Positions 25,126-44,516 of a stretch of 64,000 bases of DNA are shown in pieces (the stretch's first letter is position 1; every line of letters begins with the position of its first letter). The position numbers and the translations under genes were made by a program. Location of the stretch: contig JAFYOI010000035.1 in assembly GCA_017560255.1 (NCBI GenBank), forward strand, positions 1-64,000, in the 5' to 3' direction. The DNA is from Clostridia bacterium. Lineage in GTDB: Bacteria > Bacillota > Clostridia > Oscillospirales > Acutalibacteraceae. Below the pieces are notes generated by a model. It made no database searches, was not told the origin of the DNA, and was given only the letters and a program-made list of their open reading frames with translations.

Positions 25126-27915
25126 TTAGATATACGTATGATAGTAATCCTTGAGATAGGCGCCCGTCAGAATACTGTGGAGGTCAAAAGAGTAGCACTC
25201 GTCGGAAACGTTACCGGTGTTCAAAGTCCATACGTACTTGTTGTCGACAACAACGTAATCATTTGAGTAATATTTTTTGCCGCCGACGTAAACTTTCAAT
25301 TCGTTGAAAGCGCCGGGCTTTGTTATAACGGTGCATACCGTGTCGGACGTTGACGTGTCGAAAGTAACGCTTATTATATGGTTACTGTTTGTGTATTCAT
25401 AGTAGTAATAGTTTCTTGAATATTTTGATGTTTCTGAATTTCTTACGTCAAAGCAGTATGCGGTAGTTGTATTAGGCCTGTTAATAGTCAATTCCCAGAT
25501 ATAATCGTTGCCGATTTTTACGGGATCAGCGCAAGTGACGATACTTGATGAGCAATCGCTTGCCAACGCAAGTTTAACGCGGTTGATTGACTCAGTACAG
25601 GGCGTTGTGACGTGGAAGATAATCTTATCATCAACTATTGTATGAGTCACGTTTGTGATGGTGGCTTCACTGTCGGGGACAAATACGTTGAGTGTGAACG
25701 CTTCACTCATAAGGTATTCGGAGTTGATGAGCGGATAGAATCGGTAAATTCCCGTTTCGGTCGGAGCGGCCATCGTTATTGCCCAGATGTAACAATCTTC
25801 CGCATCAACAAATTTTGTAGTGTATGCCTGCGCGTAATTACCGCCAAACTGCGTTGCCATAATGCCGCGCAACGACGACAATGACTTTGTTGTTTTTATA
25901 ATGAAAGTAACTTCATCGCCGACAACAGATTGATGGATTGATTTGATTATACCCTCGGCAATCGTGTTTTCGTAGTTTTTAATGTGTACGGGGTAGTAAT
26001 CCTTAGAGTATGTGGAAATTGCAGTATTGCGGTAGTCAATAAGGAAGTCAACGTTCTTGGTGGGCGCGGTCATTTCGAGGGTCCATACGTAGTTTTCACC
26101 GCTTACAATGAATTTATCGGTTGTTGCAACAACTGCCTCTGATGCGTCTGCAAAGGAGATTCGCATACCGTTTATGAAGTTGGTTGCAGGAGTTGTAACC
26201 ATTACCGTCAACTTTTCTTCATTGATGGAGTATGAAACGTCCTTGATAATGGAATGAACAATGCCGTTATATGCATTGACCGTTGTCTTATATCCTCCAT
26301 CTGAATACTGCTTTTCACCGCTCAATCTGTAATCAACGGTTACTTTCGCTTCATGTAAGGGGAGTGAGGTCGAAACGGACCAGATGAGTTCTTCGCCAAT
26401 CTGTGTGTATTGCGTTGAGTAGGTGACGATGTTTTCGTTGGGGGTTGCAATTGTGACTTTGATTTTATCAATCTCGGCTTTTGCGGGCGTGGAAACGTTG
26501 AGTGTAAGTTTTCCGTCACCCATAAAAGACTGTACTTTCGTTATATGAATGGACGGGTCTATATATCGTGCGGAAGTAATATTTCCATCAAGGTCACAAA
26601 GGTACCACTTCTGGTTGTTTTCACCCGTATAGAGTGTTGCTGAAGTGGAGAAATAGTTCGCCGCTGCACTGCCGAGCGAGCAAGAAAGAACGTTTCCCTG
26701 ATTTTCCGCAAGTTCAAAAATGTAAGAGCCATCTTCTTGCTCTATGATGTAGTAAAACGACTCGTTACCGTTTGTAAATCCAAGTGAAGTGTTGAAATCG
26801 GCAGAAGCTGATATTCTGTACCTGCCGTTTGAAACGTAAGTAACAGTAAATTTCTGAGCCGATTCAGCGCTTTCTGAACGTGAGAGTATGAGCGCGGAAG
26901 TTGCATCGTTTGCAACACCGAGGGTGTAGCCGTTTTCGACGGATTTTATAATATAAACTCCTTCGTTAACGGTTCTGTAATCCGTACCGTTTGCGATGTT
27001 CTGAACGTAGAAACAGGTACCGGTACTTTCCTGACCATAGAGTCCGGAGAACGAAGCCGTTACGGTCGCAGTATAAATTCCGTTTTCAAGTCCGGAAATA
27101 GTAATATGGTTTGCTGAAACGGTTTCTGTTACAACTCTTTCACCGTCGGAGTTGTAAATTCTCACTCTGTAAGAGGTTGCACCTTTGGGAGCAGTCCATT
27201 CAAGTTCTACGTCAGCGCCCATTGGATAAATTTCCTTGGAAACTTTCGGAGGATCAATGTATTCGGCGTAATAAATGTTGTTTCCTGCCGACGTTGAGTG
27301 GTCGTAACCCGTTGTGTATTTGGGGGTTACGTAAGATGCAATGTAGAATGTGTCAAGACTGATTGTGCGGTATTTTACCGCGTGACTCCAGTTGCCGTCA
27401 ATAATTGTAACCGTGCCCTCTGTGGTATCTGACGAAACTACGAGAGCAACGTGGCTGTAAGCGGAATACTTCCCGTTATGGATTGAGGGAGTGTAGTAGG
27501 AGTCGTTGTTGCTATTGGCAAGGGGCTTGAAAAGCATAAGGTCTCCTGCTTTCGGGATATAGCCGCTGACACTTGTTGCAAAATGGTAAGCGCCGATGTC
27601 AACAAGGGACTGTACGCCCGTCGTGCGCGGAATGATGGAGGAGGGGATGCCCGCCTGGTTTGCACACCACGAAACAAACGCGGCACACCACGCGGTATTC
27701 GGAACGCCGAGCCACGCACCATATTTTGTGCCGTAATTCTCGGTGTATCCCACCTGCGTCTTTGCTATGCTTATTATGTCGTGCACCTGATTGCCCGTAT
27801 TTTTATGTGTATTAGGATAACCGGTACTGTACGCGCTTGCCTGAAAAATTGACGTGGAAATCGCCGAAAAACACAGGACAAGAACGAGTATTATACTGAT
27901 AATTCTATTCTTCAT
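25126..27915 (-). CDS. Secreted CHAP-domain protein with C-terminal beta repeats
   Basis: 929 residues. A signal peptide ends near ASA at 26-28. The CHAP domain covers about 40-200, with nucleophile Cys77 (TAWCAAFVSWC) and His155 (YSHVALVV); such domains cleave peptidoglycan peptides or amides. A fibronectin-like segment (about 215-300) and a ricin-like segment (about 310-450, closing with NNQKWYL) follow. Then come about five ~85-residue repeats with VWTL and FDVRNSETSKYSRNYY motifs. The ATG at 27915 follows GGAAAGGTG. The repeats are also found in the surface protein at 42204-44450. Confidence 0.85.
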   Translation of the reverse strand: MKNRIISIILVLVLCFSAISTSIFQASAYSTGYPNTHKNTGNQVHDIISIAKTQVGYTENYGTKYGAWLGVPNTAWCAAFVSWCANQAGIPSSIIPRTTGVQSLVDIGAYHFATSVSGYIPKAGDLMLFKPLANSNNDSYYTPSIHNGKYSAYSHVALVVSSDTTEGTVTIIDGNWSHAVKYRTISLDTFYIASYVTPKYTTGYDHSTSAGNNIYYAEYIDPPKVSKEIYPMGADVELEWTAPKGATSYRVRIYNSDGERVVTETVSANHITISGLENGIYTATVTASFSGLYGQESTGTCFYVQNIANGTDYRTVNEGVYIIKSVENGYTLGVANDATSALILSRSESAESAQKFTVTYVSNGRYRISASADFNTSLGFTNGNESFYYIIEQEDGSYIFELAENQGNVLSCSLGSAAANYFSTSATLYTGENNQKWYLCDLDGNITSARYIDPSIHITKVQSFMGDGKLTLNVSTPAKAEIDKIKVTIATPNENIVTYSTQYTQIGEELIWSVSTSLPLHEAKVTVDYRLSGEKQYSDGGYKTTVNAYNGIVHSIIKDVSYSINEEKLTVMVTTPATNFINGMRISFADASEAVVATTDKFIVSGENYVWTLEMTAPTKNVDFLIDYRNTAISTYSKDYYPVHIKNYENTIAEGIIKSIHQSVVGDEVTFIIKTTKSLSSLRGIMATQFGGNYAQAYTTKFVDAEDCYIWAITMAAPTETGIYRFYPLINSEYLMSEAFTLNVFVPDSEATITNVTHTIVDDKIIFHVTTPCTESINRVKLALASDCSSSIVTCADPVKIGNDYIWELTINRPNTTTAYCFDVRNSETSKYSRNYYYYEYTNSNHIISVTFDTSTSDTVCTVITKPGAFNELKVYVGGKKYYSNDYVVVDNKYVWTLNTGNVSDECYSFDLHSILTGAYLKDYYHTYI

Positions 27916-27978
27916 AAAATTCACCTTTCCGACCGCAATGAGATGAATATACCACCCCATTTTAGTCTCATACACGCA

Positions 27979-28473: not shown

Positions 28474-28947
28474 CTATTTAAACGCTATATACTGGTAGCG
28501 GTATCCCGATGTATTCATACAGGGATAAAAATTACTGTATACTGCATTGCTTGGTGTGTCTGTAACTGTAAAGGAATTTTCACCGAGATAGATGCCGGGG
28601 GAAGAATACCACACAGTTGAAAAACCGCCGTAAGAGAAAACTTTGTTGCTGTCTTTGTTGAATACTGACCACGGAATAAGGTTTGCATAAACAATTAGGA
28701 AAGAAGGGGTGAAGTCAAGATTGATAACTCTGGTATTTGCACCGTTACCCTGGTACGTACCTATTACAAATGGTGCATCCCATTTCGCCCTCTCTTGTGA
28801 CGTTATATGGATTTCAGTGTTGTCGAGATGCTCTCCGAGCGTAGTATCTAAGGTCTCGTTATCGTAGTTAAAATCGGCTCTTTTCGGTTTGTCTGAGCCG
28901 TCCCAGACGTTGAGTTTGAGCCTTGGTGTTTTCTGGTTGCTGGACAT
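28474..28947 (-). CDS. Phage tail fibre-like protein
   Basis: 157 residues. The N-terminus (PRLKLNVWDGSDKPKRADFNYD) resembles the attachment part of short tail-fibre or tip proteins. A beta-rich C-terminus of Gly, Tyr and Ser follows and would be the distal domain. It is the last gene of the phage block, where receptor-binding proteins usually sit. The ATG at 28947 follows GAAAGGAG. The family is inferred from position and composition. Confidence 0.6.
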   Translation of the reverse strand: MSSNQKTPRLKLNVWDGSDKPKRADFNYDNETLDTTLGEHLDNTEIHITSQERAKWDAPFVIGTYQGNGANTRVINLDFTPSFLIVYANLIPWSVFNKDSNKVFSYGGFSTVWYSSPGIYLGENSFTVTDTPSNAVYSNFYPCMNTSGYRYQYIAFK

Positions 28948-28969
28948 AAGTAATCTCCTTTCAGAATAA

Positions 28970-29533
28970 TTATTGATTTTCAAACAGGTCAAAGCGAAGC
29001 CCCATTCTGTCAATCGTGCCGAAATTAAAATCAAGAGAGTCAAATTCGTCCCAATCAAATTCCCTGAAACCTACGTCAATATGTAGGTTTGAGGGTAATA
29101 TATCCTCGATTATATTCAGTTGTTCTGCGGTTTTTACAATATCTGTTAAAGCAACAAGGTCAGGAAAATCGATTTGTTCATCTTCAAAAATTTCAACAAA
29201 ATTGTCAGAAATGCCGACAAGCCTTAACTGATGTCTGATGTCGTCAACGGTAAAGTTGTTGTTGTCGAGCGTCATATACAGGCGCAGACGGTCTTTCCTC
29301 TCCTTGATGGGCAGATCGGGACGGAAGCGATCAAAAAGTTTTTCAAAGGTTTCGATTCCGTATTCTTCAGCGGTACTTATAAAACTTTCCCGAAGCATAA
29401 TGCGGAGTTTGTCGTGCAGTTTTTCAAGTTCTGTTGCATACACCGTCAGTTCATACGTAACCAGGGAGTCTTCATTCAAATTGTAAATTCCGAGAGGGGT
29501 GAGCATATCTTGCATTTGTTTTAAAACGGACAT
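28970..29533 (-). CDS. Baseplate protein, gpI/YmfQ (XkdU) type
   Basis: 187 residues: an acidic helical N-terminal half (EKLHDKLRIMLRESF) and a C-terminal half with PSNLHIDVGFREFDWDEFDSL, as in the DUF2313/YmfQ group of baseplate wedge proteins. It follows gpJ, as in Mu, P2 and PBSX. It should connect the wedge to the fibres. Confidence 0.75.
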   Translation of the reverse strand: MSVLKQMQDMLTPLGIYNLNEDSLVTYELTVYATELEKLHDKLRIMLRESFISTAEEYGIETFEKLFDRFRPDLPIKERKDRLRLYMTLDNNNFTVDDIRHQLRLVGISDNFVEIFEDEQIDFPDLVALTDIVKTAEQLNIIEDILPSNLHIDVGFREFDWDEFDSLDFNFGTIDRMGLRFDLFENQ

Positions 29534-29543
29534 TCTGCACCTC

Positions 29544-30608
29544 CTACATCAGTTCGGTGATAATCATATTTATCGGTACAAGTTTTGATGAAGCGGGTAC
29601 AATATAGTCGTTTTGCGGAGTCACAACCTTATAGTTTTCAACTCCGTCAAGATTACGCAGCAAGGTATGCAAATCTCTGAGATACAAGGTTTTTCCAATG
29701 CCTATATTGTTGATGAATTCTGTTACCGCGTCGGCTACTGATGTTATAACGTCCGATATATTATGTCCCACTTGCGCACTTACCCTAATTTTTATCGGAG
29801 TAAAAATCTGCTCCGCTGAATATACCGAAACGTCTGTACCTACCTCTCTTGCGCTTTCCAGCATTTGTGCAACCTCATCGATTACTTGTTGTGATGGTGG
29901 TGTGTTGGAGGATGAGAAAACGACGACGTCAACCGTGCCGCGTCCGCGCTTTCTTGCTATTGCGTTCGCATCGCCTATTTCGCTGTGGCGCAATGCAATT
30001 TCACGGTAAAAAGCCGTGTTTGCACCGTTGGAAATGTCGGAATAGGTGTTTTTTACCCTTTCTCTGAGTGAATCATCGTCCTCAACGTCGCATCCGCCCG
30101 TAAATTCTACCTCGTTTGAGGCTGAAATTATTCCCTGTGGAGCCGTTACCATAACGGTGATGGTGTTTGCCGCGGCGTTGTAGTCTTTACCTGTTGCTTC
30201 TGCCTGCGCACTGACAGTAACGCTCAATTCTCCCGCTTTTAACACTGCATCTTCAGTGGTGATGAAGCGTCTTGCGTTATTACCCTTAGTTGAACAGATT
30301 GTGCCCGATGGGATTGAAATGTCCGATAATGACTCGGTTTCTCTGTAAAAAGTGATTTCTCCGAGTGCTTTATAAGCGGATTTCCGTTCAACTGCTCTTT
30401 GCTGTGCGTGCATGTCAAGGTATTGACCATCGGCAGTTTGTGGAAAAGTCTGTCGCAGAAGCCAGTCGCATTTTGAATACAGAGCAAAAATCTGACCCGC
30501 AACCACTTTTAATCTTATGCCGATGTCGGAAGCGTCGTCGGGATTAATGCCCGACAATGAGCGGAAATGATTTTTCATATTTTCAAGAATTTCGTTATAA
30601 TCGGTCAT
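29544..30608 (-). CDS. Baseplate protein J (gp47/XkdT family)
   Basis: 354 residues, full length for the family. The typical start (DDASDIGIRLKVVAGQIFALYSK) and the core (AQAEATGKDYNAAANTI, GGCDVEDDDSLRERV) are present. Baseplate J forms the wedge of contractile-type tails. The ATG at 30608 overlaps the gp25 stop by four bases. Confidence 0.92.
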   Translation of the reverse strand: MTDYNEILENMKNHFRSLSGINPDDASDIGIRLKVVAGQIFALYSKCDWLLRQTFPQTADGQYLDMHAQQRAVERKSAYKALGEITFYRETESLSDISIPSGTICSTKGNNARRFITTEDAVLKAGELSVTVSAQAEATGKDYNAAANTITVMVTAPQGIISASNEVEFTGGCDVEDDDSLRERVKNTYSDISNGANTAFYREIALRHSEIGDANAIARKRGRGTVDVVVFSSSNTPPSQQVIDEVAQMLESAREVGTDVSVYSAEQIFTPIKIRVSAQVGHNISDVITSVADAVTEFINNIGIGKTLYLRDLHTLLRNLDGVENYKVVTPQNDYIVPASSKLVPINMIITELM

Positions 30609-30946
30609 ATTGTGAACTGAACCTCCTTTTCAGCACCTATGACAGCGCTGATTGTGATTACGTTTTTTTCGCCGAATTGAACATTTGCACCGCTTACCCT
30701 CATTTGAGATGCAAGAGGGGAGAGCGCCTGCTGAGCAAATAGGAAAGCGAGTTTGTCGGCGTTTTCTCTGTTTTCGGGGGTGATTTCGGCAAAGCGACTT
30801 CCAAATTCCGCATCATGCAGAAACGCCCCCTTGGGAATTTTCAGACGCAGAAATGCTTGCTGCAATAATTCCGTTTCGTTGGAAATAGTGATGGGCATAC
30901 CGCATTCATCGGTTGCCCAATCACCATTTGAAATTTTTATATCCAT
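30605..30946 (-). CDS. Baseplate wedge protein, gp25/XkdS type
   Basis: 113 residues. The segment LLQQAFLRLKIPKGAFLHDAEFGS matches the gp25/DUF2634 lysozyme-like wedge proteins. It lies between the spike and gpJ genes, the conserved order of contractile systems. Confidence 0.82.
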   Translation of the reverse strand: MDIKISNGDWATDECGMPITISNETELLQQAFLRLKIPKGAFLHDAEFGSRFAEITPENRENADKLAFLFAQQALSPLASQMRVSGANVQFGEKNVITISAVIGAEKEVQFTI

Positions 30947-30956
30947 AAAATCCCCC

Positions 30957-31364
30957 TTAATATAAATCTTGAAAAGCAGCGGCAGTTACAGAACCCGATG
31001 TCCTGATATTACCTGATTTATCAATGGTGACAATGTTGTTAAGTACGATTGAACCATCATTTTTGAGCAGTAAATTTGCGCCACCGTGTGAAAAAACGCG
31101 AACTTCACCTGCACTTATTGCTGATGTCTTTTTCATCTCGACTCCCGCGCAAGCGGTCCGGTTTCCGCAGGTGATGAGCAATACGTCCTGGTTTTCTTCA
31201 GGGAAGAATTCAATTCCATACGGGGCATAAAAAACAATGCCTCTTTTTTCGGAAGATGATACTGCGGCAACGACGTTGTCCGTTGCAATGGAAAGTGTGC
31301 CTATTTCGGCGATATTTTCCTGCGATGAAGCGCTGTTTTCCGCAAGTTTTTTTGATAGCCACAT
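30957..31364 (-). CDS. Baseplate spike / assembly protein V-like
   Basis: 135 residues, mostly beta. An OB-fold-like part (GIVFYAPYGIEFFPEENQDVLLI) leads to a repetitive end (LLKNDGSIVLNN, DKSGNIRTSGSV) typical of trimeric beta-helix spikes such as gpV and Mu gp45. The ATG at 31364 follows GAAAGGAG; the longer upstream frame overlaps the hub gene and is not needed. Confidence 0.72.
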   Translation of the reverse strand: MWLSKKLAENSASSQENIAEIGTLSIATDNVVAAVSSSEKRGIVFYAPYGIEFFPEENQDVLLITCGNRTACAGVEMKKTSAISAGEVRVFSHGGANLLLKNDGSIVLNNIVTIDKSGNIRTSGSVTAAAFQDLY

Positions 31365-31383
31365 ATTAAAACTCCTTTCTTCG

Positions 31384-32346
31384 TCAAAGGACTTTGAGGT
31401 TTTCAGGGGGGCAAAGGGTGATTCTTGAAAATACCCCCGAGGGTTTGATGATAAAAGCATATTCCTTTATGCAAAGTCCCGTGAATTCGCCCAGAAGTGC
31501 ATCGCTGAAATCCGCCGTTGAGTACAGTTCGGTTATGCAGACGTTTGGAACTTCTATCGTTATTTCGAATGAATCTGCTTTTGATTTCTGAATTGTGCTT
31601 TTTATGCGGTACTCATTGAATTCGGGCGCATTTGATGAGAGGTTGAGCAGTCTGCGCCTTATTATCTTACGTTCAACCGCATCGTCGTTCGGACAGGCGT
31701 AAATGTAGTCGCTGTGAGTGGCAAGTTTGTAAGCAACCTGGGATAACGTTCCGTATCTCTGGCGTTTGACTTTTGCTGAGGTAAATTTCAAATCACCGTT
31801 TCGGTTGTTCGAAAACGTATAGTGCACACTTTTTCTGTTTACCCGTGCATCTAAAAATCCGTCGTTTGTAATAAGTGGATTTACTTTCAATACACTTCGG
31901 CAGAAATTTTCAATTACCTCCCATTCGCTGACACCTTTTTTAACGGTAAAGTCGCAATCGCAAACACCATTGTCGCCGAGAAAACCTTTTATTCCATATG
32001 ACTTTGCGTGTTTTGAGAAAATGTCGGCAAGCGAAGGTGTGTGATATGTTGCGGGAATTGCTTCATTGTCAATCAGCAATGCACTGTGACTTCGGGCGTT
32101 GATTTTTAGGATGCAACCTTTTGAACAGTAAGCGGCGGTTTGTTCGTCCACGATGCCCGAAAATACAAGTTTGCCATCAACTCTAACGTCAATATGAGTC
32201 AGTTCAGCCGTCGGATTAAGACAGGGGAGAGTGAGCACAAGCGCGTTTGAAGGCGTGTCCAGTGATGCATACACTTCCATAGAAACAGGAGTTGGCAGAA
32301 GAATGGAATTTCCGTTAACGTCGGTAGCGTTGATTAAAAATTTCAT
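31384..32346 (-). CDS. Baseplate hub protein, XkdQ/gpD type
   Basis: 320 residues. Beta-rich segments and the KINARSHSALLIDNEA region match the XkdQ / late-control-D hub fold. In the middle is a helical insert with WEVIENFCRSVLKVNPLI. The hub links tube and spike. It overlaps the LysM protein gene by four bases. Confidence 0.8.
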   Translation of the reverse strand: MKFLINATDVNGNSILLPTPVSMEVYASLDTPSNALVLTLPCLNPTAELTHIDVRVDGKLVFSGIVDEQTAAYCSKGCILKINARSHSALLIDNEAIPATYHTPSLADIFSKHAKSYGIKGFLGDNGVCDCDFTVKKGVSEWEVIENFCRSVLKVNPLITNDGFLDARVNRKSVHYTFSNNRNGDLKFTSAKVKRQRYGTLSQVAYKLATHSDYIYACPNDDAVERKIIRRRLLNLSSNAPEFNEYRIKSTIQKSKADSFEITIEVPNVCITELYSTADFSDALLGEFTGLCIKEYAFIIKPSGVFSRITLCPPENLKVL

Positions 32347-32864
32347 TTAATTCTCACCACGTCCCCTTGTTTTACTTCCCATGGCGATGGGATGAACGGG
32401 TTGAGTTTCATCAGTGTTTCAATGGCAACGCAGTGTAGATTACTGATATGCCATAGATTCTGACCGCAGGACAAAACGACGTAGCAACTCTGTGTCGAGT
32501 TGCTTTCAATTTCTCCGATGTCCTCAACGAAAACGAATTCATATTGAACTGTGTCTTTTGCGGGCTGACCGAGCATTTTGAGTTTGGTAAACGTCGCGTT
32601 GCAGGGTGCGATACCGGAAATCAGCAAGATCCCGCTTGTATTCTGAGCGAACAGTTTTTCAAGTTCGCTGAACCAGAAAAATGCGTTTTCGCCCGTAAAA
32701 GTACCTTTACCGCTTATGATTTTCGGTTGTCTGCCAAGGTTTTGCAGAATGCATCCGCCGTAAAGGAGATTGAGTTCCTTTACTGTGTTTTTTGTGGAGA
32801 ATGATATTTCCGCAGGGTTTATCGGCCAGACGAAATCTTTGAATCTCATATTTGCATTATTCAT
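32343..32864 (-). CDS. LysM-containing tail protein, XkdP type
   Basis: 173 residues. The N-terminal part (FVWPINPAEISFSTKN) resembles the XkdP start. The C-terminal ~50 residues form a LysM-like motif with CGQNLWHISNLHCVAIETLMKLNP in outline. XkdP normally follows the tape-measure gene and joins it to the hub. Here the gene before it encodes only 39 residues. Confidence 0.75.
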   Translation of the reverse strand: MNNANMRFKDFVWPINPAEISFSTKNTVKELNLLYGGCILQNLGRQPKIISGKGTFTGENAFFWFSELEKLFAQNTSGILLISGIAPCNATFTKLKMLGQPAKDTVQYEFVFVEDIGEIESNSTQSCYVVLSCGQNLWHISNLHCVAIETLMKLNPFIPSPWEVKQGDVVRIK

Positions 32865-32873
32865 AAAATCACC

Positions 32874-32993
32874 TTATTCGTTGTCTGAATTGAAACGTGA
32901 GGGATATCTGCGCAGATCCCGACTAGCATTTTCGGAGACAAGTTGCAACAATTCGTTTTCCGTTTCAAAAAAAGTATTTTCGTTATCCGTCAT
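32874..32993 (-). CDS. 39-residue protein in the tape-measure position
   Basis: A short frame with AAGGAGG before its ATG and a stop nine bases before the next gene. It is acidic at the start (MTDNENTFFETENELL) and basic later (SRDLRRYPSRF). It sits exactly where PBSX-type phages have a tail-assembly chaperone and a tape-measure gene of 2-4 kb. It could be a remnant of the chaperone or a small structural protein. I do not recognise it. Confidence 0.6.
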   Translation of the reverse strand: MTDNENTFFETENELLQLVSENASRDLRRYPSRFNSDNE

Positions 32994-32997
32994 AGCC

Positions 32998-33381
32998 TTA
33001 CGCCTCCTTGACCGTTTTGTGTGGGGAGAGCATGCAGATTTCGCTTATGCACTCCTTGTCGCCCACAATTTTTGTCTTCATTTTATAGGTTTTGCAGTCC
33101 GAGAAAACGATGGTCTTTTTGGGCATTCTGATTTTGACGGTAGCACCGCGAAGAAGCGATAAATCATCACTGCAGTGAACGTCCACGCTTTCAATCTGCA
33201 AATAGTGGGTGTACGCACCGAGTGTCGTTGCCGCCGCCTCGTTTTCTCCGTATTCGTGAACAAAATCCTCTTTACACGTTGTTATAACGTTGCATTCTTT
33301 AGCCCCTGCAAGTGTCTTTGAATCAAATTCAATGGTAATCTGGCTTGGGATGGGGAAAAGTTCGCTTTGTGAAATCAGCAT
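32998..33381 (-). CDS. Possible tail tube or tube-initiator protein
   Basis: 127 residues, mainly beta by composition, with two Cys-containing segments (AKECNVITTCKED, ECISEICMLSP). Position between the tail-completion gene and the XkdP gene suggests the tail tube (XkdM place), and its small size fits. No motif is decisive. The contractile sheath gene that should precede it is missing. Confidence 0.5.
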   Translation of the reverse strand: MLISQSELFPIPSQITIEFDSKTLAGAKECNVITTCKEDFVHEYGENEAAATTLGAYTHYLQIESVDVHCSDDLSLLRGATVKIRMPKKTIVFSDCKTYKMKTKIVGDKECISEICMLSPHKTVKEA

Positions 33382-33382
33382 A

Positions 33383-33811
33383 TTAACCCTCCGTTTCGTA
33401 AAATATTGAGGTTAAATTTGCGTGCAGTTCAAAACTGCCCGTATCTCTGTTTGCGGAAATTTTTCCGTATTTTACTTCCTTAATCTCAAATCGCCCGTCG
33501 TTAATCAGTGTGTTGACGGCATCGTCGAGAGCAGTAAAAGCGAGTGCGCTGTTCTTTGTGAGCGGTACGTAAACCGCCACTTCAATCTGGAGCGCAACTT
33601 CCTTACCGTGCAGAGTATCACTCAATCTGTCGCCAAGATATTTTGATGAAATGTTGCGCCCGATACTACCGACTGTAATTGTTACGTTTTTTAACGGCAG
33701 CGGCTTTATTCTGTCGGGAAAATGGCGGATTACAGTGGCGTGATTTGAAAGAGTACCGCTGAGCAATTCGACTGCCGCATTAAGAATATCGTTCGATGAT
33801 TGAAAACTCAT
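33383..33811 (-). CDS. Tail completion / terminator-type protein
   Basis: 142 residues: a helical start (NDILNAAVELLSGTL), then strands with PLPLKNVTITVGSIG and a segment ALDDAVNTLINDGRFEIKEV. This is the plan of phage tail-terminator (YqbJ-like, minor tail) proteins. The ATG overlaps the upstream stop by four bases and has GGAGGG before it. Confidence 0.6.
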   Translation of the reverse strand: MSFQSSNDILNAAVELLSGTLSNHATVIRHFPDRIKPLPLKNVTITVGSIGRNISSKYLGDRLSDTLHGKEVALQIEVAVYVPLTKNSALAFTALDDAVNTLINDGRFEIKEVKYGKISANRDTGSFELHANLTSIFYETEG

Positions 33812-34155
33812 TCTTCACCCTCCACATTTCTCAGAATTGCCCAGATATGAGTAACTTCTTCTCCAAGGTAACAGCGCTCTGCCCTTGTGATAACGTATTT
33901 TTCATCTCCGGAAATAATAACGGCATCATTACCGAGTTTAGTTATGTCATGGTCTGAAGGGCCAATGTAAAGGTAATATCCGCTTGTTGAATTGCCAATG
34001 TCGGTAAACTTGCCCTCAAGGTACATCTTGTTTTTATAGCGCAGTGGGTGAATGAGCGCACGGTAGGGCGTGCTGTACCAACCGTCAGGCGTGTGCGCTA
34101 CAACGCTTCTTCCCACGCTTGCAATTACGGCATTGAAATTGAATTTTTGCTTCAT
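33808..34155 (-). CDS. Head closure / connector protein
   Basis: 115 residues, beta-rich. It contains a start GRSVVAHTPDGWYSTPYRALIHPLRY in outline and a turn YYLYIGPSDHDI. Position after the connector gene suggests the head-tail joining or stopper protein (YqbI-like). This is inferred from gene order, not from a clear motif. Confidence 0.55.
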   Translation of the reverse strand: MKQKFNFNAVIASVGRSVVAHTPDGWYSTPYRALIHPLRYKNKMYLEGKFTDIGNSTSGYYLYIGPSDHDITKLGNDAVIISGDEKYVITRAERCYLGEEVTHIWAILRNVEGEE

Positions 34156-34518
34156 TTAAACACCCCTGAAAAAGAATGAGCCGTCGTCAACAAGGTCGGA
34201 AATAGCGGCAAGCCCCTGTTCGTATAATGCTTTTGCACTTTTGCAGATGGCATCGTATGAGCGCGTCTGGGTAACGTCACCCACAGTTATACTGTCAGCC
34301 GTACCGTTAAGGTCGGCGGAGCGGATTAAGCATAACTGATAATACGCTGCGGTAGCGGCGGCGAAAACAAGGCGGTCGTCATTTTTGTCAACGTCGGGTT
34401 TGAGCCTTTTTTCAATATTCTTTGCACACATAGAGCAAAGTGAGAGATATTCGTTGGCAGTTTGTGCGTCCATACCGGAGATGGTGCGAAGTTGCAGCAG
34501 AATTTTATTGTAATTCAT
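34156..34518 (-). CDS. Head-tail connector protein
   Basis: 120 residues, helical, with several Cys. The pattern resembles gp6/YqbG-type connector adaptors: three or four helices and a short hairpin (ITVGDVTQTRSYD). It comes right after the capsid gene, as connector genes do. Confidence 0.6.
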   Translation of the reverse strand: MNYNKILLQLRTISGMDAQTANEYLSLCSMCAKNIEKRLKPDVDKNDDRLVFAAATAAYYQLCLIRSADLNGTADSITVGDVTQTRSYDAICKSAKALYEQGLAAISDLVDDGSFFFRGV

Positions 34519-34584
34519 AAATTGAGCCTCCTTGTATTTTCTCTAAAAATTTGGGGCAAGCGGTTGCCTGCCCCGTCGGTTAAC

Positions 34585-35589
34585 TTAATAGGAAATTTTA
34601 GCGGAAGCGTCAGCAAAAATCTTTGCAAATCCTGCGGTTGAAGTAATTGCAACTCTTTCAAGTTGGCGGTCGATAAGTTTATCGTACTCGGTTGTGATGT
34701 CGCCCGCCTGAACCATTTCAAGCGCACAGTTTTTATCAAGACCGATTACTGTGTTGTTGGCGATAGCACCCGTTTTGATGAGATTTGCGCCGAGCGGAGT
34801 TACCATATTACCTGTACCCTGGAAGTTAAGACCCGCGGTTGCATCTTTCATCTCGGAGAGAGTGAGGATGCCCTCGGTTGTTGCGGGGGATGCGATGATT
34901 GTTGTCAGAGAATAGGGGTCAAGGTGATTCCAGAGTTTGAGCAAGTCTGCGTAACAAACCGCACCCTGTGTGTTTGCAACGGTACCGATAGCGTTGTTGT
35001 TGCCGTCGCCGTTGAGAAGCACGTCAATAGCATCGTTTAACTGGCAACGCGCGATGTAAGCGCCAATCTGCTTGAGTGTTACTGTGAAGAGGTCAAGTTT
35101 CTGGTATTTGAGAGCCTCGTAGGAAGCGACAAGCATACGTCCTCTCTTGTTGAGTTTAACAAGATTTTCCTTTGTTCTTACAGTTGTTTCGGGGATGTAA
35201 GCGCCCTCGTTCACTCTCTTGAGTTCCTTTTCATCCGCTGTCGGAACTGAAGCGATTGTGCGGTAGTCAAGGGAGTCGATGTTAGTAATGGTTGCAACAA
35301 TCTGAGGGAGGATATTTGCCTCCTCCATACCCTGTCTTACCGCTCTTGCAACGTATTCGGGGAAAAGTGCGGCGCTGGAAGAAGTTCTGAAGAACTTTTC
35401 AACTGCGTCACTGCCTTTACCACTCACACGGATGTCGAAACGCTTCAACTGGCGCTGATAAGCATCAAGACCTTCGAGGGATGAACCAACGTACTGCTCG
35501 GACGGGTCAAGTGATTCGAGAACTGTGGAAAAGGAGTAGGGCAGACCGTACATTCCTTTTTCAAGGCTGATATTATCGTAACTGAACAT
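34585..35589 (-). CDS. Phage major capsid protein (HK97 fold)
   Basis: 334 residues. A helical start is followed by an E-loop/P-domain pattern with ILPQIVATITNIDSLDYRTIAS, EGAYIPETTV and a C-terminal RVAITSTAGF-like strand. Size and position between the cement and connector genes fit the shell protein. GGAGG precedes the ATG. Confidence 0.78.
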   Translation of the reverse strand: MFSYDNISLEKGMYGLPYSFSTVLESLDPSEQYVGSSLEGLDAYQRQLKRFDIRVSGKGSDAVEKFFRTSSSAALFPEYVARAVRQGMEEANILPQIVATITNIDSLDYRTIASVPTADEKELKRVNEGAYIPETTVRTKENLVKLNKRGRMLVASYEALKYQKLDLFTVTLKQIGAYIARCQLNDAIDVLLNGDGNNNAIGTVANTQGAVCYADLLKLWNHLDPYSLTTIIASPATTEGILTLSEMKDATAGLNFQGTGNMVTPLGANLIKTGAIANNTVIGLDKNCALEMVQAGDITTEYDKLIDRQLERVAITSTAGFAKIFADASAKISY

Positions 35590-35610
35590 TATTATTCTTC
35601 CTCCTTAAAA

Positions 35611-35952
35611 TTAAAGCATAAATCCAACTGTGGATTCGGTTGTGTCGACGTACGTGACAAGGTATGTTCTGCCGCTTTCGTCCACGCTTACACTGCCGTC
35701 CGAACCTGCAACAAGTGTAGTGTACCCAAGTGTGGGGGCATCTGCGCTGTACTTGATTTTTACGTAACCCGATGTCTGTACTGTGGCATATCCGCCGCGC
35801 ACGTCTGTTGCAACGCCGCAGAAAACGTCACCCTGACCGCAAGCGGAAACTGTGCCGTTTGCGCTTACCTTAACCGGCGCGCCGATTTTGACGCTGTCGT
35901 TTGCTTCGAAAGTGATTGATTTTTCGTTAAAACCTGAGAATGAAACGTTCAT
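35611..35952 (-). CDS. Capsid decoration (cement) protein, DUF2190-like
   Basis: 113 residues, all beta, with DSVKIGAPVKVSANGTVSACG and GDVFCGVATDVRGGYATVQ. This is the pattern of DUF2190/gpD-like cement proteins, which trimerise on capsid faces. It lies between the protease-scaffold and capsid genes. Confidence 0.75.
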   Translation of the reverse strand: MNVSFSGFNEKSITFEANDSVKIGAPVKVSANGTVSACGQGDVFCGVATDVRGGYATVQTSGYVKIKYSADAPTLGYTTLVAGSDGSVSVDESGRTYLVTYVDTTESTVGFML

Positions 35953-35966
35953 TATAAAAATTCCTC

Positions 35967-36947
35967 CTAAATTTTAAATTCGGTATGATTGTTTGTGTTT
36001 TTCTTTGCCTTGGGAGCAAGTTGAATTGTCGGGGGGAGAGTTTCGCTCGCCTTTTTCTCAAATGCCTTTTCAAGCGATATGAGTTCGTCAATGCTCATCT
36101 TTTTAGTAATGCTTTCAAAACTTTCGACGTCCATATCGGGCAACGCAATTGTACAGAGTTTTTTAACTCTGCCCGAAAGTTCTTCATAATACTTTTCGCC
36201 AAATTTTGCCATGCGCGACATATTTGCAAATTTCTCAACGATTTCCTCTGCCTGTTCCTTTGTGATGACAAGGTTTTTGTCGGTGGATTTGAGAGTGTCA
36301 AAGATGTTGTTCATTTTGTTTTCACCACCTGCGTTAAATGATTTTGAAACGCCTGCATTCCTCTGCGCAGGCACGGCAACGAAAGACCATTCATAGGCGT
36401 CGCGGGGCTGATTTAAAATGTGATAGCAGGGCTTTGTACCATAGTTTACGCCCTTTATATGAGCGCACGCGGTCTGCTTTACGTTTGTGCCGCAGACAGA
36501 ACAAGTGACCTCTCCCACACTGCATCCAACGCTGACCTCCTTGAGAATTCCCGCGTCGATTTCGGCAATAATCTGCGCGTTTTTCTCCGTTCTTGGCATG
36601 TATGCGGATGCAACAAGTTTCATGTACGGTTCACCTATGGAGTTGAATTTGCCTTCAACCGTTTCGGTATGAGCCTTGAAAATTCTTGCGGTCTGGTCAC
36701 GGCTTTTCATACTGTGGTCAAAAATGCCCGTCTTACCGACAAACATCTGAGCAAGCGTTTTCAGGGCTGCGGGAGAAAACTGCTCGGAATCTCTGTCGAT
36801 TTCGTTGTCGCAAAGGATGAGATTAAAGGTGTAAACTTCGTCCGATGAGAGTTTCTTACGGGAGAGCGTGTTGATAAGTTCCATATCATGCGCGCTTACA
36901 CCGCTTTCGCACACGTCAATTCCTTTGTCACAAAAAAATTCCTTCAT
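35967..36947 (-). CDS. Prohead protease-scaffold fusion
   Basis: 326 residues. The N-terminal ~205 residues resemble a capsid maturation protease with FDHSMKSRDQTARI and the EVSVGCSVG strand. A Cys/His cluster (CSVCGTNVKQTACAHI) may bind zinc. The C-terminal ~120 residues are helical and charged, like a scaffold. An in-frame ATG at 36314, with GGTGGTG before it, could give the scaffold alone (35967-36314). The first ATG overlaps the portal stop by one base. Confidence 0.72.
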   Translation of the reverse strand: MKEFFCDKGIDVCESGVSAHDMELINTLSRKKLSSDEVYTFNLILCDNEIDRDSEQFSPAALKTLAQMFVGKTGIFDHSMKSRDQTARIFKAHTETVEGKFNSIGEPYMKLVASAYMPRTEKNAQIIAEIDAGILKEVSVGCSVGEVTCSVCGTNVKQTACAHIKGVNYGTKPCYHILNQPRDAYEWSFVAVPAQRNAGVSKSFNAGGENKMNNIFDTLKSTDKNLVITKEQAEEIVEKFANMSRMAKFGEKYYEELSGRVKKLCTIALPDMDVESFESITKKMSIDELISLEKAFEKKASETLPPTIQLAPKAKKNTNNHTEFKI

Positions 36948-38110
36948 TAAAAATCACCTCCTGTTGTTTCGTTGCTGTGAACGGCTCTTTCAAGTTCCTG
37001 CGCTTGAGCGCGGTAGAGCCTTGCCTGAGCAAGTTCCAACTCGTCCTGAAGCATAATCTCGTCCCACTCCACGTTGCAGTTACCGCTGAACCCATTGAGT
37101 TTCAGCCAGGTTTCGCTTATCCGGATAATGACCGGTGACAGTATACGTCTGTATGCTTCAAGTTCGCTTGTCAACATATCGGCCTGCTGCTTTGACATTC
37201 GTTCAGTGGATGACCAGGTAAGACCGAGCATAAAAGGTGGGAGTCCCGTTTTGGCAACGATCTGTTCAAGGATCTGCCTTACCGGTACTTCGCTGTCGAG
37301 CACTTGATTGTCGGCACCGATGACCTTGATGTCAACGTCGCCTACGCAGATAAAATCCTTGACCTTATCGCCCGATTGCATCGCCTTTCTCCACTGCTCT
37401 GCAATCTGTTGAGCGTTTTCCCTCGCGTGAGCCTTGTCGAGCGCATCCGACTGAGGCTTGTACGTGACGGCAAAGCGCAGATTGCCAACGCGTTCAAAAT
37501 TAAGACCGATAGTGTTGTATATCTTCATAAGTACGGAACTTACAAAGGCAAGACCTTTTAAAAGAGAGTTACCGCGCAAACTACCTGCTTCGGGGTTGAG
37601 TACGGACAGCAGTATCAGTTCGGGGTATTTTACGGCTGTGGGAGTACCGTTCACGTTGGTGCAAACGATAGTTTCAAGGGCGTTTTCGCCCCTGCACAGT
37701 TCAATGTCATCGAGGGGAGCGTTGTAAAGAGAAACGATTTTTCTGTTGTTAAGTACAATCTCTCCCACAGCCGTGCCAAAGGTGAGTAACTGTTCAAAAT
37801 ATGTTGATATAAATGAGTCAATGCCCGTCTGAGTACCGCCGACGGAAACGGTTTTGAAGAAGTGGTCAAGTCCCGCCTGAGCATCCCGAGAGCCGCAGGT
37901 GACCTTGAAACCACCAATTAAACGCGTTATTTTGAAAATAGCCGCGTCAATAATCGGTACGGCCTCGCGTAGCGCCGAGTAAAGTTTTGTGTCGGGCGCG
38001 CAAAGCGGCGTGTATCGGTCAAGTATGCCGAACGGATTTGATGCTGAGCGCTGAGCCTCAACGAGTGTTGTCGGTGCATTCTGATTTTTTGCTTTTTTAA
38101 ATAATCCCAT
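36947..38110 (-). CDS. Phage portal protein
   Basis: 387 residues. The core ALREAVPIIDAAIFKITRLIGG and the later SDALDKAHARENAQQIAEQWR, TGLPPFMLGLTWSSTERMSK segments match DUF935/SPP1-type portals. It forms the DNA channel of the head. The ATG at 38110 follows GGAGGT; the upstream ATG at 38125 precedes that site and is rejected. Confidence 0.88.
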   Translation of the reverse strand: MGLFKKAKNQNAPTTLVEAQRSASNPFGILDRYTPLCAPDTKLYSALREAVPIIDAAIFKITRLIGGFKVTCGSRDAQAGLDHFFKTVSVGGTQTGIDSFISTYFEQLLTFGTAVGEIVLNNRKIVSLYNAPLDDIELCRGENALETIVCTNVNGTPTAVKYPELILLSVLNPEAGSLRGNSLLKGLAFVSSVLMKIYNTIGLNFERVGNLRFAVTYKPQSDALDKAHARENAQQIAEQWRKAMQSGDKVKDFICVGDVDIKVIGADNQVLDSEVPVRQILEQIVAKTGLPPFMLGLTWSSTERMSKQQADMLTSELEAYRRILSPVIIRISETWLKLNGFSGNCNVEWDEIMLQDELELAQARLYRAQAQELERAVHSNETTGGDF

Positions 38111-38128
38111 AATTTTTACCTCCAAAAT

Positions 38129-39403
38129 TTATCTTTCAAGTGCAAGCGCGAAGAAGTCGCATCCGCCCTGAGCAATTACACCCATAACGAAGTAACGTAT
38201 GTCGTCCATAGCGTGATCGTTCTCTTTTTTCGGCGCATCTTTGGACAGATTGTCGTCCCAACGATAAAGTCCGAATTCCCTTATAGCGTCGTGGCAACAA
38301 GGAGCAATTTTTATTTCCTGCGCCCGAAGCGCATCGGATACCCTGCGTATGCCGTCAACAACGTTGTTTTTTGCGGGAGTGACGTGATATTTTCCGTGTC
38401 GCCTTATACATTCAATAAAACTTGCGGCGGATGGGTCGACTATGACCGATTCAATGTGGCAATCTCCTGCAAGTTCGCACAACGCCGAATAATGTTCTTC
38501 GTCGGTGCGCTGAGAACCGACCTTTTTTGAGTTGTAGTAATATTCTCTGATTCTGTACCAGACGTCGTTATAAAGTCCCCATAAACCAAAGGACGACGGA
38601 TTGACTGTGCCGTAATCGCAGGAGATGTAATATTTTTCGGCGGGACGATCTGGCGGTTGACAAATATCTCTGTCAACGTCAAAGTTTGAATAAACAAGCC
38701 CTTGCGCCGCAACCCATTTACCAAGCACAAATCTCTCATAGAAATGTCCCGAATATAGTGATTTGTATCGCGCAAGTATTTCGGGCGAGAGCGATGGGTT
38801 GTCTTCCATTCTGAAATGGACGTAGAGCGCGTTTTTCTCCTTTGCTTTTTTAATCCATTCAAGGTAGAACCAGTGTTGCGGGTTTTCGGGGTTACAGTTA
38901 AACCAGAAGCGAGAGCCTTCAACCGAGCAGCGAGCCAGAGCCTGCTCAACGAATGAACGTGGCATAAGAGCAACTTCGTCGAAAAGTACTCCCGCCAGCG
39001 TCATACCCTGTATCAGCGATGCAGACGCTTCGTCTTTTCCACCGAACAGATAAAAGCGGTTTTTTCGCTTGCCCTTTGAAATCTCAATCACGTTTGTTGA
39101 AATTTTCAATTTGCAGGAAAATCCAAGGTTTTCAAGTGTTGGCAGAAGTTCGTTGATTACGTTCCTACGCAGTGAAGCGATTGTTTTCCCGCATATTGCA
39201 AAAGAGTGGGAACTGAATCTGTAAAAAGTCCAGGCGACAAACCCTACGGACATACAACTCGTTTTGCCGCTACGGACCGCACCGTCGCAGATGATGGCGT
39301 CATACTTATGATAGGGGCTCGAATCGTTCCACCATGAAAGAGCAGTTAACTGCTTTTCGGAAAACGGAAAAAACTTTTTATTAATCTTCTCCAAAGTCAG
39401 CAC
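38129..39403 (-). CDS. Terminase large subunit
   Basis: 424 residues. The ATPase Walker A is GAVRSGKT near residue 40, and the Walker B region carries LFDEVALMPRSF. The nuclease half has SCDYGTVNPSSF and a late DDIRYFVMG. All key parts are present, so packaging may be possible. The GTG start lies inside the end of the small-subunit gene. Confidence 0.93.
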   Translation of the reverse strand: MLTLEKINKKFFPFSEKQLTALSWWNDSSPYHKYDAIICDGAVRSGKTSCMSVGFVAWTFYRFSSHSFAICGKTIASLRRNVINELLPTLENLGFSCKLKISTNVIEISKGKRKNRFYLFGGKDEASASLIQGMTLAGVLFDEVALMPRSFVEQALARCSVEGSRFWFNCNPENPQHWFYLEWIKKAKEKNALYVHFRMEDNPSLSPEILARYKSLYSGHFYERFVLGKWVAAQGLVYSNFDVDRDICQPPDRPAEKYYISCDYGTVNPSSFGLWGLYNDVWYRIREYYYNSKKVGSQRTDEEHYSALCELAGDCHIESVIVDPSAASFIECIRRHGKYHVTPAKNNVVDGIRRVSDALRAQEIKIAPCCHDAIREFGLYRWDDNLSKDAPKKENDHAMDDIRYFVMGVIAQGGCDFFALALER

Positions 39404-39890
39404 CCGCTTTGCCTATTGCTCTTGCGCCCTGTTCAATTGCCTTGTAGAATGGGATTGAACTGTCTGTATCCGTGCTTTCCGACAGTTCAATTAGTTTCTC
39501 GAGCGCATCAAGGCGGTTGAAAAATTTGATTTCAAGCGCATCTGCGCGCGGCCTTTTGATTTCAGAAACGCAGAATAAATCCATTTCTTCGAGCGCTTTA
39601 GGTGACGGCTCACCGTCAATGAACATCAGTGCAACCGCATCCGCAACGCTGCCGAAAGCAATTCGTTTGAGTCCGCTTATTGCCTGCTCGTTAAGATAGT
39701 GTTTTGCGTTTTGTTTAAAAAGCGATTGTATTTCTTTTTTGATTCTGTCCTGTGACAGCAGTTTTACTGCCGTCTTTTCGGGGAATGAATATCCCGCCTT
39801 TGCCGCCGCCTCTCTCGGCGAATAAGATTCCGCAAAATATTGGCAGAACAACTCCTCTTTTTCGGCAAGTGTTATTCTTTTTCTGCCCAA
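39381..39890 (-). CDS. Terminase small subunit
   Basis: 169 residues from the TTG at 39890, which has GGGAGGT at six bases. The N-terminal helix-turn-helix region ITLAEKEELFCQYFAES and EAAAKAGYS is typical of TerS (Terminase_2 family). A C-terminal helical part follows. It is the first gene of the phage block. A longer frame starting at 39947 lacks a binding site. Confidence 0.87.
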   Translation of the reverse strand: MGRKRITLAEKEELFCQYFAESYSPREAAAKAGYSFPEKTAVKLLSQDRIKKEIQSLFKQNAKHYLNEQAISGLKRIAFGSVADAVALMFIDGEPSPKALEEMDLFCVSEIKRPRADALEIKFFNRLDALEKLIELSESTDTDSSIPFYKAIEQGARAIGKAGADFGED

Positions 39891-40153
39891 GTTTTTTACC
39901 TCCCAAAAAATGTTTTCACTTATACCCGTAACACAGGGGTCTGGCAACCGAAAATGGTTAACTTTTTAAAAAGTTTTTTATTTTTTTGCAAGAAAACACA
40001 AAAAAACGCCTTCGTCGGACACAAATCCGATCGAAAGCGCTTTCTTTTCGCCCACACAAGAAAGGGCATGCCCGTCGCGGCATGAGCGACACACAAAAAC
40101 ATCGGTTAACCTATTTTGAACCCCGCGACTATCGCGTGTTTTTCGTTATAAAA
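39891..40153. repeat. Gene-free region with second copy of the dispersed repeats
   Basis: It holds the 50-base repeat (40041-40090) and, 15 bases later, the 32-base piece in reverse orientation (40106-40137, 28 of 32 bases like 20951-20982). I see no clear promoter for the phage block here and no integrase or regulator. Confidence 0.7.
40041..40090 (+). repeat. Dispersed 50-bp repeat, copy B
   Basis: 46 of 50 bases match 21303-21352. It lies just upstream of the phage block. Confidence 0.8.
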
Positions 40154-42203: not shown

Positions 42204-44450
42204 TTAGGTTGTGTAAGTAAAAACTACAAAATCTTTGAGGAATTTTCCTGTATTACTGTTGCGCAGGTCAAGATAGAAAGGAACGCTCTTGTCGGGAAGT
42301 GTAAATTTGAGCGTCCATACGTAATCACCGTTCGAATCGACTCTGTAATAGTTGGAGTTTGCAAGGTTTCCGATTGTTGATTCGGAAATGCCGCAGCGTA
42401 GGCGGTCAAAGTCGCCCGCAACCGTCGTTACCTTGAGTGTGAGCACAACACCGGAACGGTAGTATGTAACGGACTTGATTGACGGCACAACCGTGCACAA
42501 CACGTACTCCCTTTTGTATTTACCCGTTTCGGATGAGCGCACGTCAAAAGCGTATTCGGTTGTTTCGCTCGGATTGTTTGCGGTGATTGTCCATACGTGT
42601 TCACCGTCAGCGTTTACAACGTAATTGTCGGAGTATGCAACGTAACCTGCAAGGTCGTCTGCCAGAGTTGCCTTGACTCTGTTGAAATTTCCCGCTGTTG
42701 TTGTAACGGTGAAAATAACTTTGCCGTTTGATTTTTCATAGGTTATGGACTTGATGTTGGAGATTATCTCTGCCTCATAGTCGAAGTATTCCTTTGTATA
42801 TTTTCCTGTTACGGAATTTCTCAGATCAAAGGAATATTCCGTTGTAACTTTCGGCGCGGTTGTTTTTACTGTCCATACGTAGTCGCCGTCAGCGTTGATT
42901 TCGTATGTGCTTGCAACTGCAAGACTGCCGCCGAGGTTGTCGGGGGTGGTAACTTTGACTCGATTGAAATCACCTGCGCTTGTCACAATGGTGAACGTGA
43001 TTTTGTTGTTTGCAACGCTGTGGGAAACGCTCTTTATAACGTCCGTAGCAACTACGTTTATACCGTTCTTAACGGCAAAATCGTAAGCGTAAGACGTTGA
43101 TTTTGCATAGATTGTGAGGTTGTCACAGTCAATGAAAGCATCGGAACGGATGTAAGTAACTGTTTCGGGAATATGGAGAGAGGTGAGGTTTGTCGGGTTT
43201 ACAAATGCACGCGGGTCAATGGTCGTAACGGAATCGGGCACTGTGTATGACGTCATCTCGCTGCCAACGGGGAAGAAGTAAAGTTTTGTCTTATCCTTGT
43301 TGAACAAAACACCATTTTTAGCGGAGTAATATTTATTCTGTGTCGCAACGTTGATTTTGGTAAGTGATGTACAATCTTCAAACGTGCTTGTACCCGTTGC
43401 GGTAATGCTTAATGGGAGCGTAATCTCCGTGAGATTTGAACATCCTTTAAAAGAATCGTTTCTGATAGCGGAGAGTGTTTTGTGAATTACGATTGAAGTC
43501 AGGTTGGTACAGTCTGCAAACGAGCCGTACTCAATATATGTAACGGTTTTGGGAATTGTGTACGTTTCACCGCTCTTTGCGATGGGGTAACGTACGATTT
43601 TTGTTTCAGACTTGTTGAACAAAACACCGTCTTTTGAAACGAAATATGTGTTTTCCTTTGCAACGTCAATGCTTTCCAGAGCGGTGCAAGCATCAAAAGC
43701 GTAACTGCCAACTGAGGTGACGTTACTCGGAATAGTGATTGATTTAAGGGCTGAACACCCCTTGAAAGCGTAGTCGTAAATTCCGCTGAGAGATGACGGG
43801 AGAGTGATGCTTGTCAGTTGTGAGCATCCGGCAAACGCGCTGGTGTTGACGTACCACACTTTGTTTGGTACTTCGTATGTTTCGCCCTGCTTGCCTGCGG
43901 GGTATTGCATAAGTCTTGTTTTACCGATGTCGAAAAGTACGCCGTCAACGGAAACGTAACCCTTGCTGTTCGCATCAACGTCAATTGATGTAAGCGATGA
44001 GCAGAAAGCAAGAACTTCCGTACCGATATATGTTACGCTTGACGGGATTAAAATGCTTTTCAAATTTGTGCAGCCGTAAAATGCCTTGTTTCCGAGATAT
44101 GTTACGGAATAAGGAATGTTAACGGATTCAAGATTAACGCAACCTTCAAAAACCGATGAACTGATTTTTGTAATGGTTGACGGAATTGTAACTTGTTTTA
44201 CGTTTGTGCAGTTTCTGAAGGCGTAGTCGTTGAGTGTTACAACGGTGTTCCCACCCAAAGTGCTTGGAATTTCAACGATTTCATCGGTTCCCACGTATTT
44301 CTGGATGTAGGCCGAGCCGCTGAAAGATACGTATTCAAAGTCGCTCTCGGTTGCGGCAGATGCAGTAAATGATCCGAACGGAACGAGAACGCTTGCAATA
44401 ATCGCAACAATAAGTGCGATGCTCATAATTTTTGAACGATAACTTTTCAA
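42204..44450 (-). CDS. BspA-like LRR surface protein with C-terminal beta repeats
   Basis: 748 residues. A signal peptide ends near SAA, then LRR_5 repeats fill about 35-470 (units such as SVTYLGNKAFYGCTNLKSI). Three ~85-residue repeats end the protein, with DYVWTVKTTAP and FDLRNSVTGKYTKEYF. These repeats resemble those of the CHAP protein at 25126-27915. There is no membrane anchor, so it is secreted or held by other means. The start is a TTG at 44450 after AGGAGGGG; the ATG further up lies before that site. Confidence 0.87.
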   Translation of the reverse strand: MKSYRSKIMSIALIVAIIASVLVPFGSFTASAATESDFEYVSFSGSAYIQKYVGTDEIVEIPSTLGGNTVVTLNDYAFRNCTNVKQVTIPSTITKISSSVFEGCVNLESVNIPYSVTYLGNKAFYGCTNLKSILIPSSVTYIGTEVLAFCSSLTSIDVDANSKGYVSVDGVLFDIGKTRLMQYPAGKQGETYEVPNKVWYVNTSAFAGCSQLTSITLPSSLSGIYDYAFKGCSALKSITIPSNVTSVGSYAFDACTALESIDVAKENTYFVSKDGVLFNKSETKIVRYPIAKSGETYTIPKTVTYIEYGSFADCTNLTSIVIHKTLSAIRNDSFKGCSNLTEITLPLSITATGTSTFEDCTSLTKINVATQNKYYSAKNGVLFNKDKTKLYFFPVGSEMTSYTVPDSVTTIDPRAFVNPTNLTSLHIPETVTYIRSDAFIDCDNLTIYAKSTSYAYDFAVKNGINVVATDVIKSVSHSVANNKITFTIVTSAGDFNRVKVTTPDNLGGSLAVASTYEINADGDYVWTVKTTAPKVTTEYSFDLRNSVTGKYTKEYFDYEAEIISNIKSITYEKSNGKVIFTVTTTAGNFNRVKATLADDLAGYVAYSDNYVVNADGEHVWTITANNPSETTEYAFDVRSSETGKYKREYVLCTVVPSIKSVTYYRSGVVLTLKVTTVAGDFDRLRCGISESTIGNLANSNYYRVDSNGDYVWTLKFTLPDKSVPFYLDLRNSNTGKFLKDFVVFTYTT

Positions 44451-44487
44451 AGTAACCCCTCCTGTACGTTGCTTCATATGTAATATA

Positions 44488-44516
44488 ATGATACCACCAT
44501 TGGCACGTGTTGTCAA
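44488..44516 (-). promoter_or_regulatory. Promoter of the LRR surface protein at 42204
   Basis: Minus strand TTGACA, 17 bases, TATCAT, about 37 bases before the TTG start. Confidence 0.75.

Follow-up and report, generated by a model that had tools for sequence, protein, structure and literature searches.

What kind of particle would be made by a phage-like gene cluster that encodes packaging, capsid, and baseplate proteins and appears to have neither a tail sheath nor a tape measure? The question is raised by a minus-strand cluster at positions 28474-39947 of a 64,000-nucleotide stretch of Clostridia DNA (hereafter, the window), for which an earlier note had suggested a domesticated particle, such as a gene-transfer agent (GTA) or a very short-tailed injector.

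A compact cluster of particle genes

The ~11.5-kb cluster comprises 18 intact reading frames for packaging, capsid, neck, tail tube, and contractile-type baseplate, with head, tube, and baseplate all in one unit and most neighboring genes spaced by -4 to +66 bp, given sensible start-codon choice. PHROGs and Pfam profiles supplied the names for TerS, TerL, portal, capsid, cement, hub, gp25, gpJ, and gpI and, together with the frames, bear out the initial description of 18 tightly packed phage-particle genes:

39381..39947, minus: terminase small subunit, TerS (Terminase_2; Pfam PF03592, 4e-13; phrog_51); start codon uncertain
38129..39403, minus: terminase large subunit, TerL (phrog_2, 2e-50; PF03237, 1e-15)
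36947..38110, minus: portal protein (phrog_30703, 3e-128)
35967..36947, minus: head maturation protease/scaffold-like protein (phrog_16951, 7e-103; weak head maturation protease matches)
35611..35952, minus: capsid cement/decoration protein (phrog_4588, virion structural protein, 3e-27)
34585..35589, minus: major capsid protein (phrog_3922, 2e-91; PF25209, 4e-15)
34156..34518, minus: putative head-tail adaptor-like protein, g7 (position; kept in 40/40 family regions)
33808..34155, minus: putative stopper-like neck protein, g8 (weak PF10665, Minor_capsid_1; conserved position)
33383..33811, minus: tail terminator, g9 (AlphaFold2, pLDDT 91.8, and Foldseek)
32998..33381, minus: tail tube protein (AlphaFold2, pLDDT 88.9, and Foldseek)
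32874..32993, minus: 39-aa protein, candidate tape-measure stub (C-terminal RDxRRY motif, position, length)
32343..32864, minus: LysM-type baseplate protein, XkdP-like (phrog_380, 4e-07; weak LysM)
31384..32346, minus: baseplate hub, gpD/GpP-like (phrog_177, 2e-13; PF21683)
30957..31364, minus: candidate spike, gpV-like, from its position (phrog_25991, of unknown function, 2e-10; conserved order in relatives)
30605..30946, minus: gp25-like baseplate wedge/sheath-initiator protein (phrog_975, 2e-04; weak PF10934)
29544..30608, minus: baseplate J (wedge), gpJ (PF04865, 2e-52)
28970..29533, minus: gpI-like tail protein (phrog_521, 1e-11; weak PF10076)
28474..28947, minus: candidate fibre/receptor-binding protein (in tail-less relatives, its C-terminal domain forms a fusion with the tail terminator)

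The gene set from 28474 onward thus stands as first described, but the end originally placed at 39890 does not, as TerS runs on to ~39947; the spike and fibre genes probably start at ~31364 and ~28947. In TerL, the Walker A (GAVRSGKT) and Walker B (LFDE) motifs and the nuclease aspartates are legible in the sequence, and profile matches and predicted folds alike assign the particle proteins a caudoviricete origin. The island sits within a 285-kb contig with host genes on either side and no integrase in the cluster, and is therefore fully endogenized. Scanning the cluster genes and the two adjacent genes with PHROGs and Pfam returned no integrase, repressor, replication, or lysis gene, in agreement with the earlier report of none of these, holin and endolysin included; the complement that a functional temperate prophage would carry beside its structural genes is absent.

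The island is placed inside a block bounded by two genes (25126-27975 and 42204-44516) whose products resemble secreted surface proteins and have a similar repeated domain at their ends (AGDFNRVKV...FDLRNS.TGKY.KDY). The first encodes a CHAP protein, apparently a host surface protein, whose N-terminus is signal-like and which carries Ig/ricin repeats. Glycogen genes (glgB, glgC, glycogen phosphorylase) lie within a few kb of the element at ten loci among the relatives, an adjacency that recurs in two families of the order.

A tube and a terminator, but no sheath or long tape measure

The products of the two doubtful small tail genes were modeled with AlphaFold2 from alignments of relatives. 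The product of 32998-33381, previously a candidate tube protein, matched the tail tubes of phage 812 (TM 0.74), phiCD508 (TM 0.75), diffocin, and RcGTA in Foldseek searches, confirming the assignment. The product of 33383-33811 matched the collars of pyocin R2 and diffocin, lambda gpU, and RcGTA; of the three connectors first proposed, g7 and g8 can stay as adaptor-like and stopper-like proteins, but this third one is a tail terminator. Between the tube and the LysM gene, where a PBSX-like particle would have a long tape measure, lies nothing but the 39-aa ORF. It is preceded by AAGGAGG and is a genuine small gene, because relatives have the same C-terminal RDxRRY motif in the ORF that occupies its place; its position, motif, and length make it a possible tape-measure remnant.

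The sheath of a PBSX-like contractile particle is likewise missing. Neither Pfam Phage_sheath_1 (PF04984) nor a family-specific profile built from 28 sheath-bearing relatives—which recovered sheaths in three positive-control genomes—matched anywhere in the window genome, and the same was true of Pfam PhageMin_Tail for the tape measure. The absence of a sheath and a long tape measure, first noticed in the island, extends by these profiles to the whole genome, and predicted folds and profile searches together rule out a concealed homologue of either in the small genes, save for the possible 39-aa remnant.

Graded tail reduction among relatives

Related elements fall into three grades of tail architecture. 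In the first, terminator, sheath, tube, chaperone, short ORF, and LysM gene follow the canonical contractile order, again with no long tape measure from tube to LysM; sheaths occur in one element (L125) of the window's own family, in most members of a second family, which is GC-rich, and in some members of a third. The second grade, that of the window, has neither sheath nor chaperone. The short ORF before LysM, ending in an ERDxRRY-like motif, measures 81-215 aa in elements with a sheath and 28-78 aa in those without (39 aa in the window). The third grade has lost the tube, hub, spike, and wedge genes, and its final gene is a tail terminator fused to a fibre domain—in L117, for example, a single protein matches both the terminator profile (8e-35) and the fibre profile (6e-48). 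Such fusions (L117:9010-9852, L121:10053-10910, L158:13913-14761) are the sole tail protein in one clade of relatives. Seven head-only or tail-less genomes of the own family have no copy of gpJ genome-wide, which rules out relocation of the baseplate in these genomes; a terminator-fibre fusion is the last gene in six of the seven or their close kin.

Tail state changes 8 times on an rpoB tree, compared with 23 times when labels are shuffled. Since the sheath-bearing relatives hold the canonical order terminator-sheath-tube-chaperone, absence of the sheath is most simply explained by loss, which we prefer over gain. The tail also appears to have been lost in place, because window-type and fused forms share the same chromosomal site next to mgtE (see below). 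Two other arrangements were seen: eight clusters from another family represent an even more reduced form, made up only of head genes, terminator, and hub with no spike, wedge, or fibre in the cluster, and one relative (L282) has capsid and cement matches upstream of the portal, in a gene order unlike that of other relatives.

Distribution, inheritance, and selection

The host order includes Caproicibacter, Faecalispora, and Clostridium sporosphaeroides, and named carriers include Caproicibacter fermentans, Faecalispora jeddahensis, C. sporosphaeroides, and Anaeromassilibacillus. A portal homologue is present, as one copy per genome, in 112/200 genomes of the own family, in 70/394 genomes of the order, and in 88 of 198 genomes of a second family of the order, where a few fragmented genes yield two matches. 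A class-wide sample of 391 genomes gave eight carriers, every one inside the host order and none outside it. Loss is common, given that ~44% of the sampled own-family genomes (some of them incomplete) have no portal. Capsid relatives at 30-37% in IMG/VR (L088-L110) showed matches chiefly to protease, cement, and capsid.

Distances computed from TerL, portal, protease, and capsid correlate with those of rpoB (Mantel r 0.666, n = 46 genomes; maximum 0.305 in 5000 permutations), and the correlation within the own family alone is 0.736. Elements also occupy fixed sites: hflX is found 17-211 bp downstream of the element in nine genomes (seven genera) of one subclade, and six genomes (five genera) of another have mgtE 140-459 bp upstream, baseplate-bearing and tail-less forms both included. 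The window copy is at neither site, and DegV was rejected as a site in common with the other family, identity being just 25-28%. The Mantel correlations, the clustering of tail states on the host tree, and the conserved neighbors all indicate vertical inheritance with host co-diversification.

The dN/dS ratios come from relatives, the closest one found for the window being too distant for reliable dS. Between closely related elements, window-type or tail-less, every gene had a low dN/dS, mostly well below 0.4 (0.00-0.22 for L128/L129, 0.06-0.40 for L114/L115, 0.03-0.14 for the tail-less pair L165/L198), with terminase and capsid among the most constrained genes; values of 0.24-0.73 came from one wider, GC-rich pair with sheaths, for which dS is probably an underestimate. 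The argument that intact, coupled frames reflect purifying selection rather than decay is thus borne out in relatives, by these ratios as well as by host congruence and fixed sites.

A dyad upstream of the terminase in relatives

Upstream of TerS, the dyad AAGTTGCA-N8-TGCAACTT (at most three mismatches) was found in 27/140 relatives, as against ~0.2 in shuffles, at ~60-130 bp from the gene in seven loci; the LexA box GAAC-N4-GTTC was found in none of 76. The genome of one relative (G1050) contains four exact dyads, which lie ahead of TerS, a gene for a BppU_N receptor-binding protein, and two MuF-barnase genes that both have barstar behind them, with contigs C16 and C17 among the loci; at two mismatches, dyads are also found ahead of a further BppU_N gene and a DUF4417 fusion. 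A second exact dyad in G1035 also precedes a DUF4417 fusion, and two further sites in G1105 adjoin DUF6291 genes. Elsewhere, G812 has many copies that resemble dispersed repeats and G122 one exact dyad near dnaA. Proteins at two relative loci (L433:4308-7520, L442:4969-6321) combine a DUF4417 N-terminal domain with variable C-terminal regions, and the L433 gene, followed by repeated small ORFs, resembles a polymorphic toxin with immunity genes.

Because exact G1050 dyads also precede the BppU_N and MuF-barnase/barstar genes, they suggest a particle regulon with toxin cargo. No site with two or fewer mismatches exists in the window genome, and none lies near the window TerS, so the regulon is a lead on relatives and not a property of the window. 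Tentatively, an order-wide domesticated particle may have shed its tail in place, from contractile to sheathless with a tape-measure stub to a terminator-fibre protein, and in at least some members may be one output of a dyad-driven regulon that also turns on separate receptor-binding proteins, together with immunity-paired toxins loaded into the head (MuF-barnase/barstar, DUF4417 fusions); a host-owned particle would then deliver both DNA and toxin.

Proposed function and alternatives

We took our criteria for a GTA from a published definition, which specifies caudoviricete-derived proteins, packaging of mostly random host DNA, an endogenized genome that is not fully packageable, vertical inheritance, and delivery (PMC9662315). 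The earlier suggestion of a domesticated particle with a very short tail is supported by a single copy across much of the order, a host-congruent phylogeny, fixed neighbors across genera, and purifying selection. The island is an old domesticated GTA-like element in reduced-tail form, a variant of a recently recognized kind. More fully, we consider it probable that it is a vertically inherited, GTA-like phage-particle locus (a viriform) with a PBSX-like contractile ancestor, working as follows.

Judged from sequence, its most likely function is the packaging and transmission of fragments of the host's own DNA. Terminase and capsid are both retained and constrained, which implies DNA packaging, and a short tube with hub and baseplate but no sheath points to delivery through a short tail that does not contract. 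Most likely, the terminase would fill a small capsid with host DNA, with adaptor, stopper, and tail terminator as the closure; the tube linking the neck to a baseplate of hub, spike, wedge, and fibre would be very short, limited in length by the 39-aa remnant that stands in for a full tape measure. With no sheath there would be no contraction, and attachment would proceed via the fibre, with delivery like that of a short-tailed phage. Particle production, host-DNA packaging, tail length, and delivery to other cells are all predictions from the gene content.

The same particle might instead be a weapon that packages host DNA, as PBSX does, and serves mainly to kill competitors, perhaps with a head-carried toxin. 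PBSX both packages host DNA and kills, according to the account given in PMC12946183, a published proposal has MuF toxins carried inside phage heads (PMC5576092), and the G1050 dyads join TerS to two such genes with barstars. The window grade, however, has no contractile sheath, its genome no comparable dyad, and the island no toxin gene; moreover, with terminase and capsid among the most constrained genes, DNA packaging itself appears to be selected. We therefore regard use as a weapon as unlikely. Very improbable is a satellite dependent on a resident phage for sheath, tape measure, and lysis genes: some relatives do have a PhageMin_Tail gene elsewhere in the genome, but the window genome offers neither that nor a sheath to borrow, no integrase was seen, and vertical inheritance at fixed sites is unlike a mobile satellite. 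Least probable of all is a defective prophage that recently lost its sheath, tape measure, integrase, and lysis genes, since the phage-like gene order and the missing integrase and lysis genes are outweighed by a sheathless gene order that recurs across many genera with intact frames, low dN/dS, fixed sites, and a phylogeny congruent with that of the hosts, contrary to a recent deletion from a complete prophage.

If the island is a GTA-like locus, it joins a very small group, as few GTAs have a known gene cluster and those of gut Clostridia were reported only in 2026. With its relatives, it constitutes a conserved marker set spanning a whole order and a natural series in which a contractile tail is dismantled stepwise while capsid and packaging motor stay under selection. 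Such a series allows tests of which tail parts are indispensable to a DNA-delivering particle, whether the minimal tube is set by a tape-measure stub, and what share of gene flow among abundant gut bacteria such particles carry.

Comparison with known systems

The PBSX family follows the order portal-protease-capsid-connectors-tube-LysM-hub-gp25-gpJ-gpI. The window shares this order with PBSX of Bacillus subtilis, which packages host DNA, but PBSX has a sheath, tape measure, regulators, and lysis genes, and the window cluster has none. RcGTA and the Rhodogtaviriformidae (PMC9662315) are similar in their vertical inheritance, host co-divergence, and structural cluster without integrase, and the window tube and terminator models resemble RcGTA chains. 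The RcGTA tail, however, is non-contractile and siphovirus-like, whereas the window baseplate is of contractile type with no tape measure; the two elements likely arose independently.

Closest in host are FpGTA I and II of Faecalibacterium prausnitzii, from the same order, which according to PMC12946183 (2026) were purified as ~40-nm capsids with no visible tails and 8.4-8.9 kb of host DNA, delivery to other cells being unproven. The authors' search covered Faecalibacterium, Gemmiger, and Subdoligranulum. Like the window, FpGTA has an operon of TerS, TerL, portal, scaffold, and capsid without replication genes; the particle is reported as probably podovirus-like with baseplate and fibre proteins as part of it, and the portion of the description available mentions no sheath. 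FpGTA consists of two operons, with holin/endolysin in the second, unlike the single 11.5-kb window cluster without lysis genes. The two are compatible in gene order, and the best reading of the island is a vertically inherited, very short-tailed GTA-like element that may be akin to FpGTA.
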